From Candidatus Poseidoniales archaeon (GTDB lineage: Archaea; Thermoplasmatota; Poseidoniia; Poseidoniales; Poseidoniaceae), in contig QQSC01000024.1 of the NCBI GenBank assembly GCA_003602475.1, forward strand, positions 18,583 to 74,030: a stretch of 55,448 bases of DNA, given 5' to 3'. Each line of letters starts with the position of its first letter. Position 1 is the stretch's first letter. Made by a program: the position numbers and the translations under genes. Positions 14,244 through 21,667 of this stretch are shown piece after piece. The notes beneath the pieces were generated by a model, which worked only from the letters and a program-made list of their open reading frames with translations, did not search any database and was not told where the DNA came from.

Positions 14244-14336
14244 TGGCGCCCGTCACATACCACCCAAACCGACGCATTGCCAGTCCCGTCCGCGGGAAAG
14301 GGTATAAGCAAACAGCAAGGGGGGAAAGCGATTGCC

Positions 14337-15335
14337 ATGGCCAACATCTCCGTGCTGGGTTTGGGGAACTGGGGAACAGCCATCGCCCGTTTGTGGCTTT
14401 TGGAAGGTCACAAAGTCAAGGGATGGACCATCGAGCAGGAGGTTTACGAGTCCATCACCATGGACGGCATCAATCGAAAATACCTTCCAAACCATTCTGT
14501 CGAAGGGTTGGATGTCACCATGCGAATTGAGGAAGCGATCGAAGAGTCCGAAATTCTCGTTCTTGCCGTTCCATCGTCCGTGATTCTTGAAGTGGTCAAG
14601 GACGTGCTCCCGCATCTTCATCCCGGCCACGTGCTGTTGGACCTCGCCAAGGGTCTTGCACCGGGAAATCAATTGATTTCAGAAGCCATTCACGCCATGT
14701 TGCAAGAACAAGGAATGGCCAATCCACTCGCAGTTCTCACCGGACCCACCATCGCACCTGAGGCAGCGGGTGGCGTCATGACCACGGCGTTGGTGGCAAG
14801 CGAAGACGACAGCGTGGCTCAACGCCTCGCTCAAACCTTGTCAACACCAACGTTCATCCTTCATCCGGCCAGTGACCCTGTGGGCGCAGAACTGTGGGGT
14901 GCGTTCAAGAACGTCGTTGCCCTTGCGTGTGGCTTGGTCGATGGACTCAAGCAGGTCGGCGACATGGGGGGTGACAACCTCAAGGCGGCCATCTTCATGG
15001 CCGGCTTCAAAGAAGGATGCTTGCTGCTGCCCGAACTTGGCGCTCGTGCTGAGGTAGCCTTCGGCCCGGCTGGGTTGGGCGACATGTACGTCACCGCAAC
15101 TTCGCCGCACGGTCGAAACCGTTCGATGGGAGAAAAATTGGGGACGGGGCTAAGTCTTGAACAGGCCTTGGAGGAAATGCACATGGTGGCCGAAGGGGTT
15201 CGTGCCACTCAGATGTTCAGCGACCGAGCCATTGACGACGACCTCAACATACCGTTCGTCAAAGCCCTGAATACGCTTCTTGAAGGCGACATTACCGCAG
15301 AAGAATGCTGCCGTAGAATGGTCGCCTTGGGCTAA
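14337..15335 (+). CDS. gpsA: NAD(P)-dependent glycerol-3-phosphate dehydrogenase (bacterial GpsA type)
   Basis: MANISVLGLGNWGTAIARLWLLEGHKVKGWTIEQ...ILVLAVPSSVILEVV...KGLAPGNQLISEAI...AVLTGPTIAPEAAGGVMTTALVAS...ELWGAFKNVVALACGLVDGL...GPAGLGDMYVTATSPHGRNRSMG. Confidence 0.96.
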   Translation: MANISVLGLGNWGTAIARLWLLEGHKVKGWTIEQEVYESITMDGINRKYLPNHSVEGLDVTMRIEEAIEESEILVLAVPSSVILEVVKDVLPHLHPGHVLLDLAKGLAPGNQLISEAIHAMLQEQGMANPLAVLTGPTIAPEAAGGVMTTALVASEDDSVAQRLAQTLSTPTFILHPASDPVGAELWGAFKNVVALACGLVDGLKQVGDMGGDNLKAAIFMAGFKEGCLLLPELGARAEVAFGPAGLGDMYVTATSPHGRNRSMGEKLGTGLSLEQALEEMHMVAEGVRATQMFSDRAIDDDLNIPFVKALNTLLEGDITAEECCRRMVALG

Positions 15336-15649: not shown

Positions 15650-16564
15650 TCACTCGCTCTCAGGCAATCCCTGGGTAGCTCCCATTGGGGTCGGATGCTG
15701 CACGGAGGAGATCGAAGCGGGAAGGAAAATCGATGACCACGTTGGACGTTCAACATCGCCTTCTTCGTTCACCGCTGAACGCAGAGCCATGGAAATAAAA
15801 TCAATCACGAGCACCACCAAAAACACCACGATGAGCAACGCCACCACCTTGTCGTACTGACCGAGTTTGAGGTAGGTGTTGATGTACAATCCAACCCCTC
15901 CGGCACCCACGAGCCCGATGACCGTGCCGTGGCGAACGTTGTACTCAAACATGAACAGGACGTGGCTGAGCAGTTGATTGGCGGATTCAGGAATGGCGAC
16001 CAACCAAGCCGTCTCCATTCGAGACATCCCCATGGCTTTGGCCGATTCCAATGGTGCGTTTTTGACGCCTTCCATGGATTCAAACTGCAACTTTCCAAGA
16101 TAACCCACCGTGTAGAAGGTCATGGCAAAAATTCCCGCCAAGGTACCAATGCTGAAGATGATGACAAACAACACGGCCCATATGATCGAAGGCAGACTTC
16201 GCATACCCGCAAGAAGGATACGGGAGGGTACGGCAAGGTAAGTTGGAGAGAGGTTGCCTGCTGCCATCACGGAAATTGGAAGCGCCACGACGAAACCCAG
16301 CATGGTGGCTACAAAAGCGATTTTCAAGGTCTCAATGACACCCAGCCAAGCCACGGAACAGGTGAATTCAAACCGAGCCTCGCATACAGGATAGGATTGT
16401 GCCTTGAGAACACTCCAATTGGGTGGCCACAAACTTTCCCTCACAAACACACCAAGGTTGGATACACCTCCTGAAACGCGTCCCCAATCTCCGACGAGGT
16501 CGAAAAACAAATGCACAGTAAGGGCGGCCAAACCTAAACCGACGATCACCGTTCTGCGATTCAT
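15650..16564 (-). CDS. phnE: phosphonate/phosphate-type ABC transporter permease
   Basis: MNRRTVIVGLGLAALTVHLFFDL...ETLKIAFVATMLGFVVALPISVMAAGNLSP...RSLPSIIWAVLFVIIFSIGTLAGIFAM...AMGMSRMETAWLVAIPESANQLLSHVLFMFEYNVRHGTVIGLVGAGGVGLYI. Confidence 0.93.
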   Translation of the reverse strand: MNRRTVIVGLGLAALTVHLFFDLVGDWGRVSGGVSNLGVFVRESLWPPNWSVLKAQSYPVCEARFEFTCSVAWLGVIETLKIAFVATMLGFVVALPISVMAAGNLSPTYLAVPSRILLAGMRSLPSIIWAVLFVIIFSIGTLAGIFAMTFYTVGYLGKLQFESMEGVKNAPLESAKAMGMSRMETAWLVAIPESANQLLSHVLFMFEYNVRHGTVIGLVGAGGVGLYINTYLKLGQYDKVVALLIVVFLVVLVIDFISMALRSAVNEEGDVERPTWSSIFLPASISSVQHPTPMGATQGLPESE

Positions 16565-17223
16565 CTGGTCAACTCCTCCACCAGTCGGTGGTCCTTGATT
16601 CGCCAAATTCTGTTGGCGACTTGAGTAGCCAATTCTTCGTGATGTTCAACCATGACCATCGCTGAATTTTGGCTTTCAATGGCATGGCGAACCGTTCGCA
16701 TCACGACATCGACGTTGTCGTCATCCAATTCACCGAGAAACTCATCCGCCAACACAAGTTTAGGGCGTTGAGCGACGGTTTTGGCTGTTGCCACACGGCG
16801 TTGTTGCCCTCCGGAGAGGATGCGTACTGGATGATCAGCCAGATGAGCGATACCCAGATCCTCCATGGCTTGCTGAGCGTACCCTTGGTGGTCCTTTGGC
16901 ACTCCGAGGAAAGGTGGGTACCATTTCGAGAGACTCACCCGAACTCCCATTTCGACGTTTGAGCGAACGCTGAGGTTGCTGACGAGTCCCAAGCGTTGTG
17001 GAATGTAGCCCACCCCACCGCGGGGGGCAACGCCGAGTTCCACATGACCCGACAAAGGTTTCACCAAACCGGCAATCGTTCGCAAGAGCGTGGTCTTGCC
17101 AATGCCGGATGGACCGAGGACAGCGATCACATCGCCCGCCTGGATTTCGACATCGACCTCTTCGATCAGGGGTTGGTCGTATCCAACCGCAACATCGTGG
17201 AGGTGGACCAAGGGTTCACTCAT
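16561..17223 (-). CDS. phnC: phosphonate-type ABC transporter ATP-binding protein
   Basis: Walker A GPSGIGKTTL, signature LSGGQQRRVATAKTVAQRPKLVLADEFLGELDDDN; adjacent to phnD and phnE. Confidence 0.92.
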   Translation of the reverse strand: MSEPLVHLHDVAVGYDQPLIEEVDVEIQAGDVIAVLGPSGIGKTTLLRTIAGLVKPLSGHVELGVAPRGGVGYIPQRLGLVSNLSVRSNVEMGVRVSLSKWYPPFLGVPKDHQGYAQQAMEDLGIAHLADHPVRILSGGQQRRVATAKTVAQRPKLVLADEFLGELDDDNVDVVMRTVRHAIESQNSAMVMVEHHEELATQVANRIWRIKDHRLVEELTR

Positions 17224-17224
17224 C

Positions 17225-18280
17225 TCAAGACCCGTCCTCACCGTATCGTTCATCGAGATAGGTCGAAATCCCTGGTACTTCTGAGATGAGGGAGCCGTAA
17301 CTGCCCAGATGGGCTTCTGTGGTGGTTGCCACAATACCGGGAGTGTTGAGGATGTTTTCCAGTATGGAGCGGCCGTCTTCAGTGTCGTTGAGCGCCACCA
17401 GTGCAGCGACAACGGCGTCTCTTGTTTCTGCATCGATGGTATCTGGCTGGTACATCAGTGGATGAGAGGGAGCTTGGCCAAACGTTGGCAACTTGACGTA
17501 GCGATTCATGTCGAGACACCAGTCCTCGTTTTCACTGGCGATTTCATCCCCGCAATAACTGTTGAGTGACGAATCCTTGGCAAAGGCAACGCCCCCAGCC
17601 TCCTCTGAGAGGCAGCGCAACGCACCGCCATAACCGTAGTACAGCGTTCCTGATTCTGGGATCGACGCGTTGTCTCCAAAGTGATTGTAGATGGTGTTTC
17701 GCAGGGATTCAATGTCCTCCGAATCACCGACAACTTCGGCATAACCCTGCCCGATGAAGAAACCCATGGGAATCAACATGCCCGCTGATTTCAACCAGCC
17801 CGTGTGACATGAGGCAACGCCGGTCAATTCTGCAAACGGGTCGGTGCTGTTGTCATCGTCGTTCAACGCTTGAGCTGCAGCACTGTCGTTCAAGACATAA
17901 GCATGGGCGTTGTAATATGTACGACCGTCGGATTTTTGATCAGCGGCCATGGCTTCCAATCCGTATTGTTGCCACCCCATCCATCCAGCGCCACCGTCCA
18001 TGAAGGCCATGTCGGCGCTGCCAAATCGGAGCGCTTGGAGAGCGAGGGCATCAGAGGTGATGGAATAAATTTCAACGTTGGCTCCCAACTCAGCGCTGAG
18101 GTAGTCGGCTAATTTTTGCGGATTCTCGTCAAATGAGGTGTAATCGTCCCGAACTGAAAACGCAATTCGTATCGTTTCTTCATCATCGGCATCTTGACCC
18201 AAGCAACCCACAAGTGTGGCGTTCATCAGAAGCAGCAGGGTCAAAAGGTAGGTTTTTGGGTTTTTTCGGTTGGTTCGCAT
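17225..18280 (-). CDS. phnD: phosphonate/phosphate-type ABC transporter substrate-binding lipoprotein
   Basis: Lipobox-like LLLLLMNATLVGCLGQ; IRIAFSVRDDYTSFDENPQKLADYLSAELGANVEIYSITSDALALQALRFGSADMAFMDGGAGWMGWQQYGLEAMA, a PhnD-like fold; operon context. Confidence 0.9.
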   Translation of the reverse strand: MRTNRKNPKTYLLTLLLLMNATLVGCLGQDADDEETIRIAFSVRDDYTSFDENPQKLADYLSAELGANVEIYSITSDALALQALRFGSADMAFMDGGAGWMGWQQYGLEAMAADQKSDGRTYYNAHAYVLNDSAAAQALNDDDNSTDPFAELTGVASCHTGWLKSAGMLIPMGFFIGQGYAEVVGDSEDIESLRNTIYNHFGDNASIPESGTLYYGYGGALRCLSEEAGGVAFAKDSSLNSYCGDEIASENEDWCLDMNRYVKLPTFGQAPSHPLMYQPDTIDAETRDAVVAALVALNDTEDGRSILENILNTPGIVATTTEAHLGSYGSLISEVPGISTYLDERYGEDGS

Positions 18281-18297
18281 GGTAATTCACGTACTGG

Positions 18298-18346
18298 TTT
18301 AGGGCACCCGAAAAGTCGGACGCATATAAGTTTAGGGTTCCCTAAA
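18298..18346 (-). promoter_or_regulatory. phnD promoter: TATA-like box flanked by two 16-bp palindromic operator-like sites
   Basis: TTTAGGGCACCCGAAA at 18298..18313 (imperfect palindrome) and TTTAGGGTTCCCTAAA at 18331..18346 (perfect 7+2+7), with catataag between them (TATA on minus strand ~18323-18330), upstream of ATG 18280. Confidence 0.7.
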
Positions 18347-18790: not shown

Positions 18791-21667
18791 ATGAACAAAA
18801 TGCTTGCAATCGCTATGACCTCCATGCTCCTCCTCGCAGGATGCTTGGACGCAGAGGATGCTGTTGACCAAATTGACGACGTCATTGACATTGTTGTGCC
18901 GGGCTGTGACAACCCAGATGCCTACAATTACAACAACAGTTCTGACAATGAACTCGCATGCTTGAGCCAAGAAGTGCTCACTGAAGCTCTCTCCACCTTT
19001 GTTCTGTTCATGGACAATGGACCCCAGATGGGGGACACCGCAGGACTCACACAGCATGCCGTGTTCCAACAAACCGGTATGGATGGTGAAATGGTCGACA
19101 CTGAACTTACCTCCACCCTCATGGTCAGCCCCAACGGATCGGCCATGTCCACCACCATGGACTTCGGATCGATGGGCGAGTTTGCACAAACATGGTGGGC
19201 ATACCCAGGCGAAGCCAACACCACCTCCATCTTCGTGGACTACAACGGCGAGGAATTCATGATGACCAGCGCCATGACCTACACCGAGACCATGGCCGAT
19301 TTCATCGGCTCAGATGAGATGGACGACGGCATGGACAACGACAACACGGAGGCAGAAAACATGACCAATGAAACGGACTCCAGCACAGGGGATCTCGACG
19401 CACCAGAGGTTGACTTCAGCCTTTACGACTGGAACTCTACCAACTTCGCCATGGAGCTTGACCTCACCAACCCCGAAGCCATGTTCAGCTTCACTGCTGA
19501 CGTGAGTGTTGAAGGCACTACCCATGCCATCGATGTCAAGGTCAACGAAGCGTTTGGCGTGCGTGCCATCACGGTGCATTACCCTGATTTCAATGAAACC
19601 GTGACCATGACCCTCCACACCGAAGCAGAAGTAAGCTCCATGCTTGCTGAAGGAACGGTTGCTGGCCCTGCCATGGAAGCCCTCCCCTTCATGATTGAAG
19701 CGACCCTCGAAACGGACATGGAACCCATGGCCACCGATGCTGATGGCAATCCTCTGTTCATCACCCTTTACGAGTGCATCTACCTCGTTGGACAAACCAG
19801 TTTGGCCAACGCCTCCCACGAAGAGGTCGTGAACAGCAGCACCCTCAACGCCAGCATGTGCGGCACAGAGGCCGATGCCTACACCATGACCGCCAACGAA
19901 ACATTTGGCATTCCGTTCGACACCGTGTTCGTTCTCCCTGATATGGACATGGGCCTCATGTTCAACAACGACACCAGTGCTACCACCTACAGACTCATGC
20001 ACGAGGGGAACACCACCACCGAAGAAGATTGCAACATGTACGGCACTTGGGACAACACATCTTCGTTGTGCGTTGAAGGCACATGGGTTGTTGATGACTA
20101 CGACGCAGGAGCCATCCTCATGAACGACGAGATGGCTGAATACGCATGGGACGGCGTCAACAACGTCCTTCTGTTCGTGTTCACTGAGGACTCTTACGTC
20201 TGCGATAACGGTGATTACGTCCCTGCAGATTGGTATCACGATGGAGAGGAGGACTGCATGGACGGTTCTGACGAACCAGATTCTTCGTCCCACAACGGTG
20301 ACGGAAGCGTTGACTTCGTTGATGCATACGATTGCATCTTCTTCCTTGATACAGCAGCCCTCGTTGGGGAAAACTCAACCTTCTTTGAGTCGCTTGACAC
20401 GATGGGCGTGGACACCAGCATGTGCGGCACCTTGGTCAACGACCACAACCACACCTTTACTCAAACCAACGTAACCGTCCCGACCAACTTGATGTTCTTC
20501 GATGACGGGAACTTCGCCAACGTCACGCACGACGGGGTCAACTTGACCTTGCATTGGAACAACTGGAGCGTTCATGCCTCGGGCGCCACAGATTGTGCCG
20601 AATCCGGCGGAACATACCTCAACAGCACCGACATCTGTGAGGTGTTGTTCGACATCGTCAACGCCGATGGAAGTGCATTGGAATTGTACAACGCTCTGTC
20701 CAACGAAACGAACCATCTTCTGTACAACTACAACACCAGCACCATGAGTGGAGTGTTCATGATGATCCAATCAAAGTTCATGTGCGACGATGGACAGCTG
20801 ATTGATGATTACCAATTCGACGACATGTACACCGATTGCATCGACGGTAGCGACGAACCCGGCATGACCACATCACCCAGCGTAGACTGGAACTTTGTTC
20901 AACTCGAGATAGGCAGTGCCAACGAAGACGGCTTCGAAGTCGTGTTCTACAGTGGTGTCGAGCATGTGGACGCCGTTGAATTCATGATCTGGAACAATGA
21001 CGACGCATCCGAAATGGTCAACTGGACGGTCAGCACCTCCGACCTGGTGAACGGTCAGAACAACGAATCCTACATCACCATGACAATCCAGTCCCTCGTT
21101 GACACCTACATGCTATCCGACGGGTGCTACAGCATTGATGCCCGTATTGAATACGACAACTCGTCGGAGACCTACGGAACAAGTTTCTGTGTTGGAGACG
21201 TCGATCATGGCACGGGTGGAGACGACAACTCAAACGGTCATTGGACCATTTATGCCGGCAGTGAAATGTTTGCTTATTCCGGTGACTTTGCTGACTACAG
21301 CATCGTGTTGAGCGATTGCGATGACGTGATGACCGAAGACGATGAGATGACAATGGAATGCGGCGATGACGTCGTTTCTGTGACCATCGCCTCTGTGTTG
21401 ATGACCGCTGCCGAAGCCGAAGAGGCCATGATGGATCAGAACACCACCATCGTCTTCGTGGACTTTGACAACTCCGGCACCATTACCTCAGGCGACATGA
21501 TTGGCGTTCCCGGCGATGGCGGCACCACCGACGACTGGAACACCGTTCGACTTCACTCCACAAGCGCCGATGCTTACAGCGATGAGAACCCAACCTTGCC
21601 CGGTTTCACCGGCGTGTTGGCCACCCTCGCCCTTCTCGGAGCCGTCATGGTTCGCCGAGAGAACTGA
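18791..21667 (+). CDS. large secreted/surface acidic protein with lipobox, LDLa-like motifs and PGF-CTERM-like C-terminal anchor
   Basis: N-term MNKMLAIAMTSMLLLAGCLDAED; VPGCDNPDAYNYNNSSDNELAC; CDNGDYVPADWYHDGEEDCMDGSDE and CDDGQLIDDYQFDDMYTDCIDGSDE; C-term LPGFTGVLATLALLGAVMVRREN. Confidence 0.85.
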   Translation: MNKMLAIAMTSMLLLAGCLDAEDAVDQIDDVIDIVVPGCDNPDAYNYNNSSDNELACLSQEVLTEALSTFVLFMDNGPQMGDTAGLTQHAVFQQTGMDGEMVDTELTSTLMVSPNGSAMSTTMDFGSMGEFAQTWWAYPGEANTTSIFVDYNGEEFMMTSAMTYTETMADFIGSDEMDDGMDNDNTEAENMTNETDSSTGDLDAPEVDFSLYDWNSTNFAMELDLTNPEAMFSFTADVSVEGTTHAIDVKVNEAFGVRAITVHYPDFNETVTMTLHTEAEVSSMLAEGTVAGPAMEALPFMIEATLETDMEPMATDADGNPLFITLYECIYLVGQTSLANASHEEVVNSSTLNASMCGTEADAYTMTANETFGIPFDTVFVLPDMDMGLMFNNDTSATTYRLMHEGNTTTEEDCNMYGTWDNTSSLCVEGTWVVDDYDAGAILMNDEMAEYAWDGVNNVLLFVFTEDSYVCDNGDYVPADWYHDGEEDCMDGSDEPDSSSHNGDGSVDFVDAYDCIFFLDTAALVGENSTFFESLDTMGVDTSMCGTLVNDHNHTFTQTNVTVPTNLMFFDDGNFANVTHDGVNLTLHWNNWSVHASGATDCAESGGTYLNSTDICEVLFDIVNADGSALELYNALSNETNHLLYNYNTSTMSGVFMMIQSKFMCDDGQLIDDYQFDDMYTDCIDGSDEPGMTTSPSVDWNFVQLEIGSANEDGFEVVFYSGVEHVDAVEFMIWNNDDASEMVNWTVSTSDLVNGQNNESYITMTIQSLVDTYMLSDGCYSIDARIEYDNSSETYGTSFCVGDVDHGTGGDDNSNGHWTIYAGSEMFAYSGDFADYSIVLSDCDDVMTEDDEMTMECGDDVVSVTIASVLMTAAEAEEAMMDQNTTIVFVDFDNSGTITSGDMIGVPGDGGTTDDWNTVRLHSTSADAYSDENPTLPGFTGVLATLALLGAVMVRREN

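Follow-up and report, generated by a model that had tools for sequence, protein, structure and literature searches.

Which signal controls the operon usually labelled phnDCE in the window (i.e., the whole 55,448-nt stretch of Candidatus Poseidoniales DNA analysed here), and what does this operon transport? The question is raised by two palindromes in the promoter of the phnD-labelled gene. The answer favoured here, which is quite probable as judged from sequence comparisons, is that the operon encodes a transferrin-type ABC iron importer that would be repressed by an iron-loaded DtxR/IdeR-like protein at the TBP/TFB and the start sites. The features of the locus are collected in Table 1.

Table 1. 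Features at and around the paired operators (positions are those of the window).
Feature	Position	Strand	Remarks
Operator 1	18331..18346	-	perfect 16-bp palindrome; adjoins the TATA-like element on the BRE/TATA side
TATA-like element	18324..18329	-	TTATAT; read from the sequence
Operator 2	18298..18313	-	near-palindrome, 6/8 pairs
Binding protein (usual label PhnD)	17225..18280	-	transferrin-type lipoprotein, 351 aa, lipobox LVGC
PhnC-like ABC ATPase	16561..17223	-	PF00005; ATG 17223 is the likely start, with a longer frame opening at 17433
PhnE-like ABC permease	15650..16564	-	PF00528; ATG overlaps the ATPase stop
Glycerol-3-phosphate dehydrogenase	14277-15335	+	NAD-dependent; also matches the C-terminal domain of bacterial type; relevant to the lipid divide between archaea and bacteria
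Secreted protein	18791-21667	+	958 aa; LDL-receptor class A domain; PGF-type sorting tail at the C-terminus

Promoter layout and its conservation

Read towards the operon on the minus strand, the promoter is composed of operator 1 (TTTAGGGAACCCTAAA), a single C, the TATA-like element, GCGTCCGACT, operator 2 (TTTCGGGTGCCCTAAA), in which one half-site is the variant TTTCGG, and 17 nt preceding ATG 18280. From centre to centre the operators are 33 bp apart, corresponding to three helical turns, and the arrangement given in the preliminary description, i.e., a palindrome and a TATA element followed by a near-copy 33 bp further on and just before the start codon, is borne out by the sequence. In archaea the distance from the TATA box to the transcription start usually is about 25 nt, and the start of this operon is therefore expected inside operator 2. 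A tRNA-Gln(CTG) gene is located 33 bp upstream on the same strand, and the secreted protein of Table 1 is encoded divergently from it.

Searching the window for TTTMGGGNNCCCKAAA with up to two mismatches resulted in the two operators as sole matches, shuffled sequences giving an expectation of 0.51. The genome-wide background check proposed earlier likewise leaves the finding standing, the operators being the only exact motif matches in the draft genome of the window (1.95 Mb, 89% complete; Poseidoniaceae, Marine Group II). The single place with one mismatch (C17:12031) was rejected as it lies within a membrane-protein ORF, and laxer matches were rejected as they are intragenic or have no iron gene near.

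Orthologous loci were collected by a GTDB contig scan and stem from Candidatus Poseidoniales (Poseidoniaceae, Thalassarchaeaceae) and from Marine Group III, with orthologues of the binding protein being present in 46/58 family genomes. The palindromes are conserved upstream of these orthologues, as the preliminary description had asked to be checked: 78 of the 80 promoters contain an exact TTTMGGNNNNCCKAAA and 74 contain two sites with at most one mismatch each, counts which are not independent because the genomes are related, although the protein identity to the copy in the window goes down to ~47-55%. In the controls the corresponding counts were 0 to 0.1 for base shuffles and ~2 for 200-nt windows drawn at random from these loci, some of these windows overlapping the promoter itself. 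The consensus over the 80 promoters is TTTAGG-N4-CCTAAA, usually occurring twice per promoter, with the outer bases fixed and the central bases variable. The last two sites are 33-35 bp apart in 48 promoters, 43-45 bp apart in 15 and 32 bp apart in one, next to six promoters with 15 bp and four with 79 bp; the spacings of 33-35 and 43-45 bp are whole helical turns.

Moreover, overlap with the core promoter and the predicted start, a trait of DtxR/IdeR-type operators, is found: in 52/52 distinct pairs spaced 32-35 bp the TATA-like element begins 0-3 nt past operator 1, and the end of operator 2 mostly precedes the ATG by 11-18 nt in the orthologues. The conserved operators flanking the TATA-like element give good support to the earlier proposal that a repressor would cover both the TBP/TFB site and the transcription start. 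A pair of sites 34 bp apart also occurs in a member of another family of the same phylum, outside the class (L218). The same archaeal locus was encountered in two assemblies titled Deltaproteobacteria (L158, JAOMAZ010000020.1) and Flavobacteriaceae (L205, NZUH01000006.1), which probably are mislabelled or contaminated.

Genes behind the motif and the candidate regulator

As the draft genome of the window has strict sites at one operon only, the regulon was deduced from the relatives. An exact TTTMGGNNNNCCTAAA is present in 50/56 family genomes, with 251 strand-matches compared to 54 for the reversed control pattern. Counted in loci, some of which overlap and which do not represent independent genomes, the motif precedes the transferrin-type gene (20 loci), a FEA1-related lipoprotein (12; Pfam Fea1, described as 'low iron-inducible periplasmic protein', and NCBIfam FEA1_rel_lipo with 330 bits), flavodoxin (9), NuoA (8), an M28 peptidase membrane protein with a C-terminal match to ZIP metal transporters (6), an FTR1/EfeU-like permease (3-5), a 4Fe-4S ferredoxin (3) and an ABC ATPase (2), for which SufC-like is a reading of the ABC_tran match. 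The motif thus stands before iron uptake and iron-sparing genes in the relatives, and the target set, as predicted from these matches, resembles an iron regulon comprising ferric uptake, replacement of ferredoxin by flavodoxin, Fe-S assembly and the respiratory complex I, which is rich in iron. The earlier suggestion that the transporter is tied to metal status is thereby supported, the metal probably being iron. FEA1 was not found in the draft genome of the window at its completeness of 89%.

Several loci behind the motif are of interest in themselves. FEA1-related lipoproteins at L077, L078, L100, L103 and L121 carry it, several with a pair 34 bp apart; two copies 19 bp apart precede nuoA of complex I at L061, L063, L085 and L094; the M28/ZIP membrane protein is encoded at L083 (1-2016, minus strand), L043, L049, L066, L091 and L123; and a small zinc-ribbon-like Cys-rich protein follows the motif at L092, L119, L120 and L127.

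The half-sites were initially described as resembling DtxR/MntR/IdeR-type operators more than a known phosphate regulator, and TTAGG-N4-CCTAA indeed corresponds to the published IdeR half-site for a single dimer, which consists of two CCTAA repeats with a 4-bp spacer, one of these half-sites being known at a nuo promoter (PMC10317159). A DtxR-family regulator is encoded in 55/56 family genomes, with one clear member in the genome of the window (G000:C6; L036:1033-1701, minus strand, 222 aa). In an alignment with IdeR, its Cys105, Glu108 and His109 are invariant (31/31), and the position of IdeR Met10 is occupied by Glu in 28/31 sequences, as in MntR-like proteins. The sulfur ligands of IdeR favour Fe(II), while the corresponding positions of MntR are occupied by Asp or Asn and by Glu (PMC10317159). 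Combining the IdeR-type Cys with the MntR-type Glu, the predicted metal site is a hybrid. This Glu, together with the best NCBIfam model being an MntR, if far under its cut-off, would fit a Mn-responsive, MntR-like repressor, or one sensing both metals, with the operon answering mainly to Mn. This is unlikely: the invariant Cys stands at the position of IdeR Cys102, where MntR has Glu (PMC10317159), the targets of the motif are iron genes (FTR1, FEA1, flavodoxin, Fe-S proteins), and the recurrent targets examined include no NRAMP- or TroA-type Mn transporter.

Likewise improbable is that another protein, Fur or a lineage-specific regulator, occupies the operators in an equally iron-responsive manner. 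The DtxR-family protein is a putative binder, and autoregulation of its gene was rejected, the motif being absent at 31/31 loci; moreover, a Fur homologue is present in the genome of the window. However, the half-site sequence and its 4-bp spacer agree with IdeR and the DtxR-family protein is nearly universal, whereas Fur-family proteins occur in only 9/56 family genomes and thus cannot account for a motif that is present in 50/56, so that Fur was rejected as its regulator. Those genomes of genus g3 that are without the motif (G002, G013) still encode the DtxR-family regulator, which may therefore have other targets.

The binding protein and its partners

The binding protein matches PF12974 (Phosphonate-bd) with 69 bits and PF00405 (Transferrin) with 59 bits, the cut-off of the latter being 20.3. 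By sequence its closest solved relatives are lactoferrin and transferrin (PDB E-value 8e-25 alone and 1.5e-37 with the family profile). The residues aligned with the iron ligands of lactoferrin are conserved in a set of 40 sequences of the family that includes second lobes: D95 in 39/40 and Y123, Y217 and H273 in 40/40. At the carbonate site Thr160 is found in 40/40 and the position of the Arg is taken by Lys164 in 38/40; furthermore, four cysteines are invariant (C158, C223, C243, C255). Two lobes in tandem, making up a protein of ~700 aa, are found in many orthologues, and in those of L011, L012, L017, L019, L025, L029, L031, L032 and L034 the iron ligands are found in both lobes. Across the phylum, PF00405 was detected in 44/194 sampled genomes, 41 of them in the same class, and in 0/14 control genomes.

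The PhnD and Ptx models, on the other hand, score far below their cut-offs (TIGR03431 for PhnD: 32.5 bits, cut-off 261.1; TIGR01098 for the phosphate/phosphite/phosphonate family: 45 bits, cut-off 112), and the Phosphonate-bd profile is matched at positions 14-102 and 189-238 with its middle unmatched. The label "PhnD" is probably wrong. An AlphaFold2 model (mean pLDDT 82) has a fold resembling PtxB/PhnD and transferrins alike; the fold comparison was dropped as a discriminator since both match, and the ligands decide. With ligands for Fe(III) and carbonate and a poor match to PhnD, the operon most likely is an iron transporter under iron control rather than a phosphonate importer with an odd link to metals. 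The preliminary name phnDCE agrees with two of the three genes: a PhnC/PhnE-like ATPase and permease follow the binding protein in 63/64 loci long enough to judge, the ATPase scoring below the cut-off of TIGR02315 and the permease reaching 214.9 bits with TIGR01097, slightly under 216.7. For the binding protein itself the name probably does not hold.

It is very improbable that the operon encodes a true phosphonate or phosphite importer and that the palindromes are operators of a phosphorus regulator. The PhnC/PhnE-like partners, the Phosphonate-bd match and PtxB/PhnD among the top fold matches would agree with it, and phosphonate transport in Marine Group II has been annotated in print (PMC6336850). 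Against this stand the profile scores and the conserved transferrin ligands; moreover, PhnJ of the C-P lyase was detected in 0/56 family genomes with a positive E. coli control, and no phosphorus gene is among the recurrent motif targets, and on these last two grounds the reading was rejected. No further Phosphonate-bd protein was detected in the draft genome of the window. Finally, it is scarcely credible that the palindromes are RNA hairpins, e.g., a terminator of the tRNA-Gln upstream, as the paired sites persist at loci with no tRNA and a different upstream sequence (L009, L012, L033), for which this reading was rejected, the pair recurs with the same spacing before several FEA1 genes, which are unrelated to the transferrin-type gene, and fixed outer bases are combined with variable central ones.

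Proposed mechanism and comparison with known systems

The relationship of the binding protein to transferrins and the recurrence of the sites at iron genes together point to an iron importer that would be off when iron is plentiful. Under iron sufficiency one metal-loaded repressor dimer would bind per TTAGG-N4-CCTAA site. The dimer on operator 1 would block TFB and TBP at the BRE and the TATA box, and the dimer on operator 2, on the same helix face three turns downstream, would block the start site and thereby polymerase; with both operators occupied the operon would be off. Under iron limitation the repressor would lose its metal and leave the DNA, allowing expression of the operon, and the lipid-anchored transferrin-type protein would bind Fe(III) together with carbonate as the anion and pass it on to the PhnC/PhnE-like ABC importer. 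Here we infer the identity of the binder, iron as the effector, repression by binding and Fe(III) as the substrate. Counted against this reading as a whole were the Glu at the Met10 position, MntR as the best model, Lys in place of the carbonate Arg, the regulator gene without a motif, the fold match to PtxB/PhnD, the g3 genomes and the restriction of strict sites to one operon in the draft genome of the window.

Among uncultured plankton, Marine Group II archaea are one of the most abundant groups, and much of the ocean is iron-limited. Phosphonate transport was assigned to the Marine Group II core genome (Tully, 2019; PMC6336850), an annotation whose source probably is the transferrin-type operon. 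A search of open-licence papers gave neither a description of iron sensing or acquisition in Marine Group II nor a publication that deals with transferrins of archaea or with an iron regulon in this group. More generally, we lean towards the view that Marine Group II and Marine Group III import iron via genuine transferrins, bilobal ones included, together with PhnCE-type ABC subunits and under control of a DtxR-family iron-sensing repressor acting at paired half-sites around the TATA box, that the core trait 'phosphonate transport' is iron transport, and that the binding protein stands, as a natural intermediate, between the PhnD-type binders and the transferrins of animals. If so, a 'core' phosphorus trait (PMC6336850) would have to be reinterpreted as an iron trait, archaeal metatranscriptomes could be examined for iron stress with the promoter motif as the sequence marker, and the biology of transferrins would extend into the Archaea, giving a handle on the origin of transferrins.

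Several known systems resemble parts of this operon. With the phosphonate/phosphite importers PhnDCE and PtxABC, the operon shares a related ATPase and permease, the order binding protein, ATPase and permease, and a similar fold of the binding protein, whereas this protein is far under the cut-offs of the PhnD and phosphate/phosphonate families, leaves the central part of the phosphonate profile unmatched and contains a transferrin-type CHTGxxKSAG loop. As regards regulation, Leyn and Rodionov reportedly described in 2015 archaeal DtxR-family iron regulons, in which, as here, a regulator of this family is combined with a palindromic motif at metal uptake genes; Marine Group II is said not to be covered and transferrin-type and FEA1-type targets not to be described. 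The IdeR/DtxR boxes have in common with the archaeal sites the TTAGG/CCTAA half-site, the 4-bp spacer and the overlap with promoter elements (PMC10317159), and similar to the IdeR half-site at nuo the archaeal motif also precedes nuoA in relatives. However, the archaeal sites are separate half-sites three or four turns apart around the TATA box, whereas the full IdeR/DtxR box comprises 19 bp with four CCTAA repeats (PMC10317159); this full box is absent here, some relatives having overlapping sites 15 bp apart, and unlike IdeR the archaeal regulator has the Glu at the Met10 position. The algal FEA1/phytotransferrins (PF07692) are represented in the relatives by the FEA1-related lipoproteins sharing the motif, often paired at 34 bp, but they belong to a protein family different from the binding protein of the operon and were not found in the draft genome of the window. 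Finally, animal transferrin and lactoferrin (PF00405) share with the archaeal protein the Asp-Tyr-Tyr-His ligands, the carbonate Thr, conserved Cys residues and two-lobe forms; unlike these, the archaeal protein is a lipoprotein encoded beside ABC subunits, has Lys in the position of the carbonate Arg and matches Phosphonate-bd with its N-terminal half as well.
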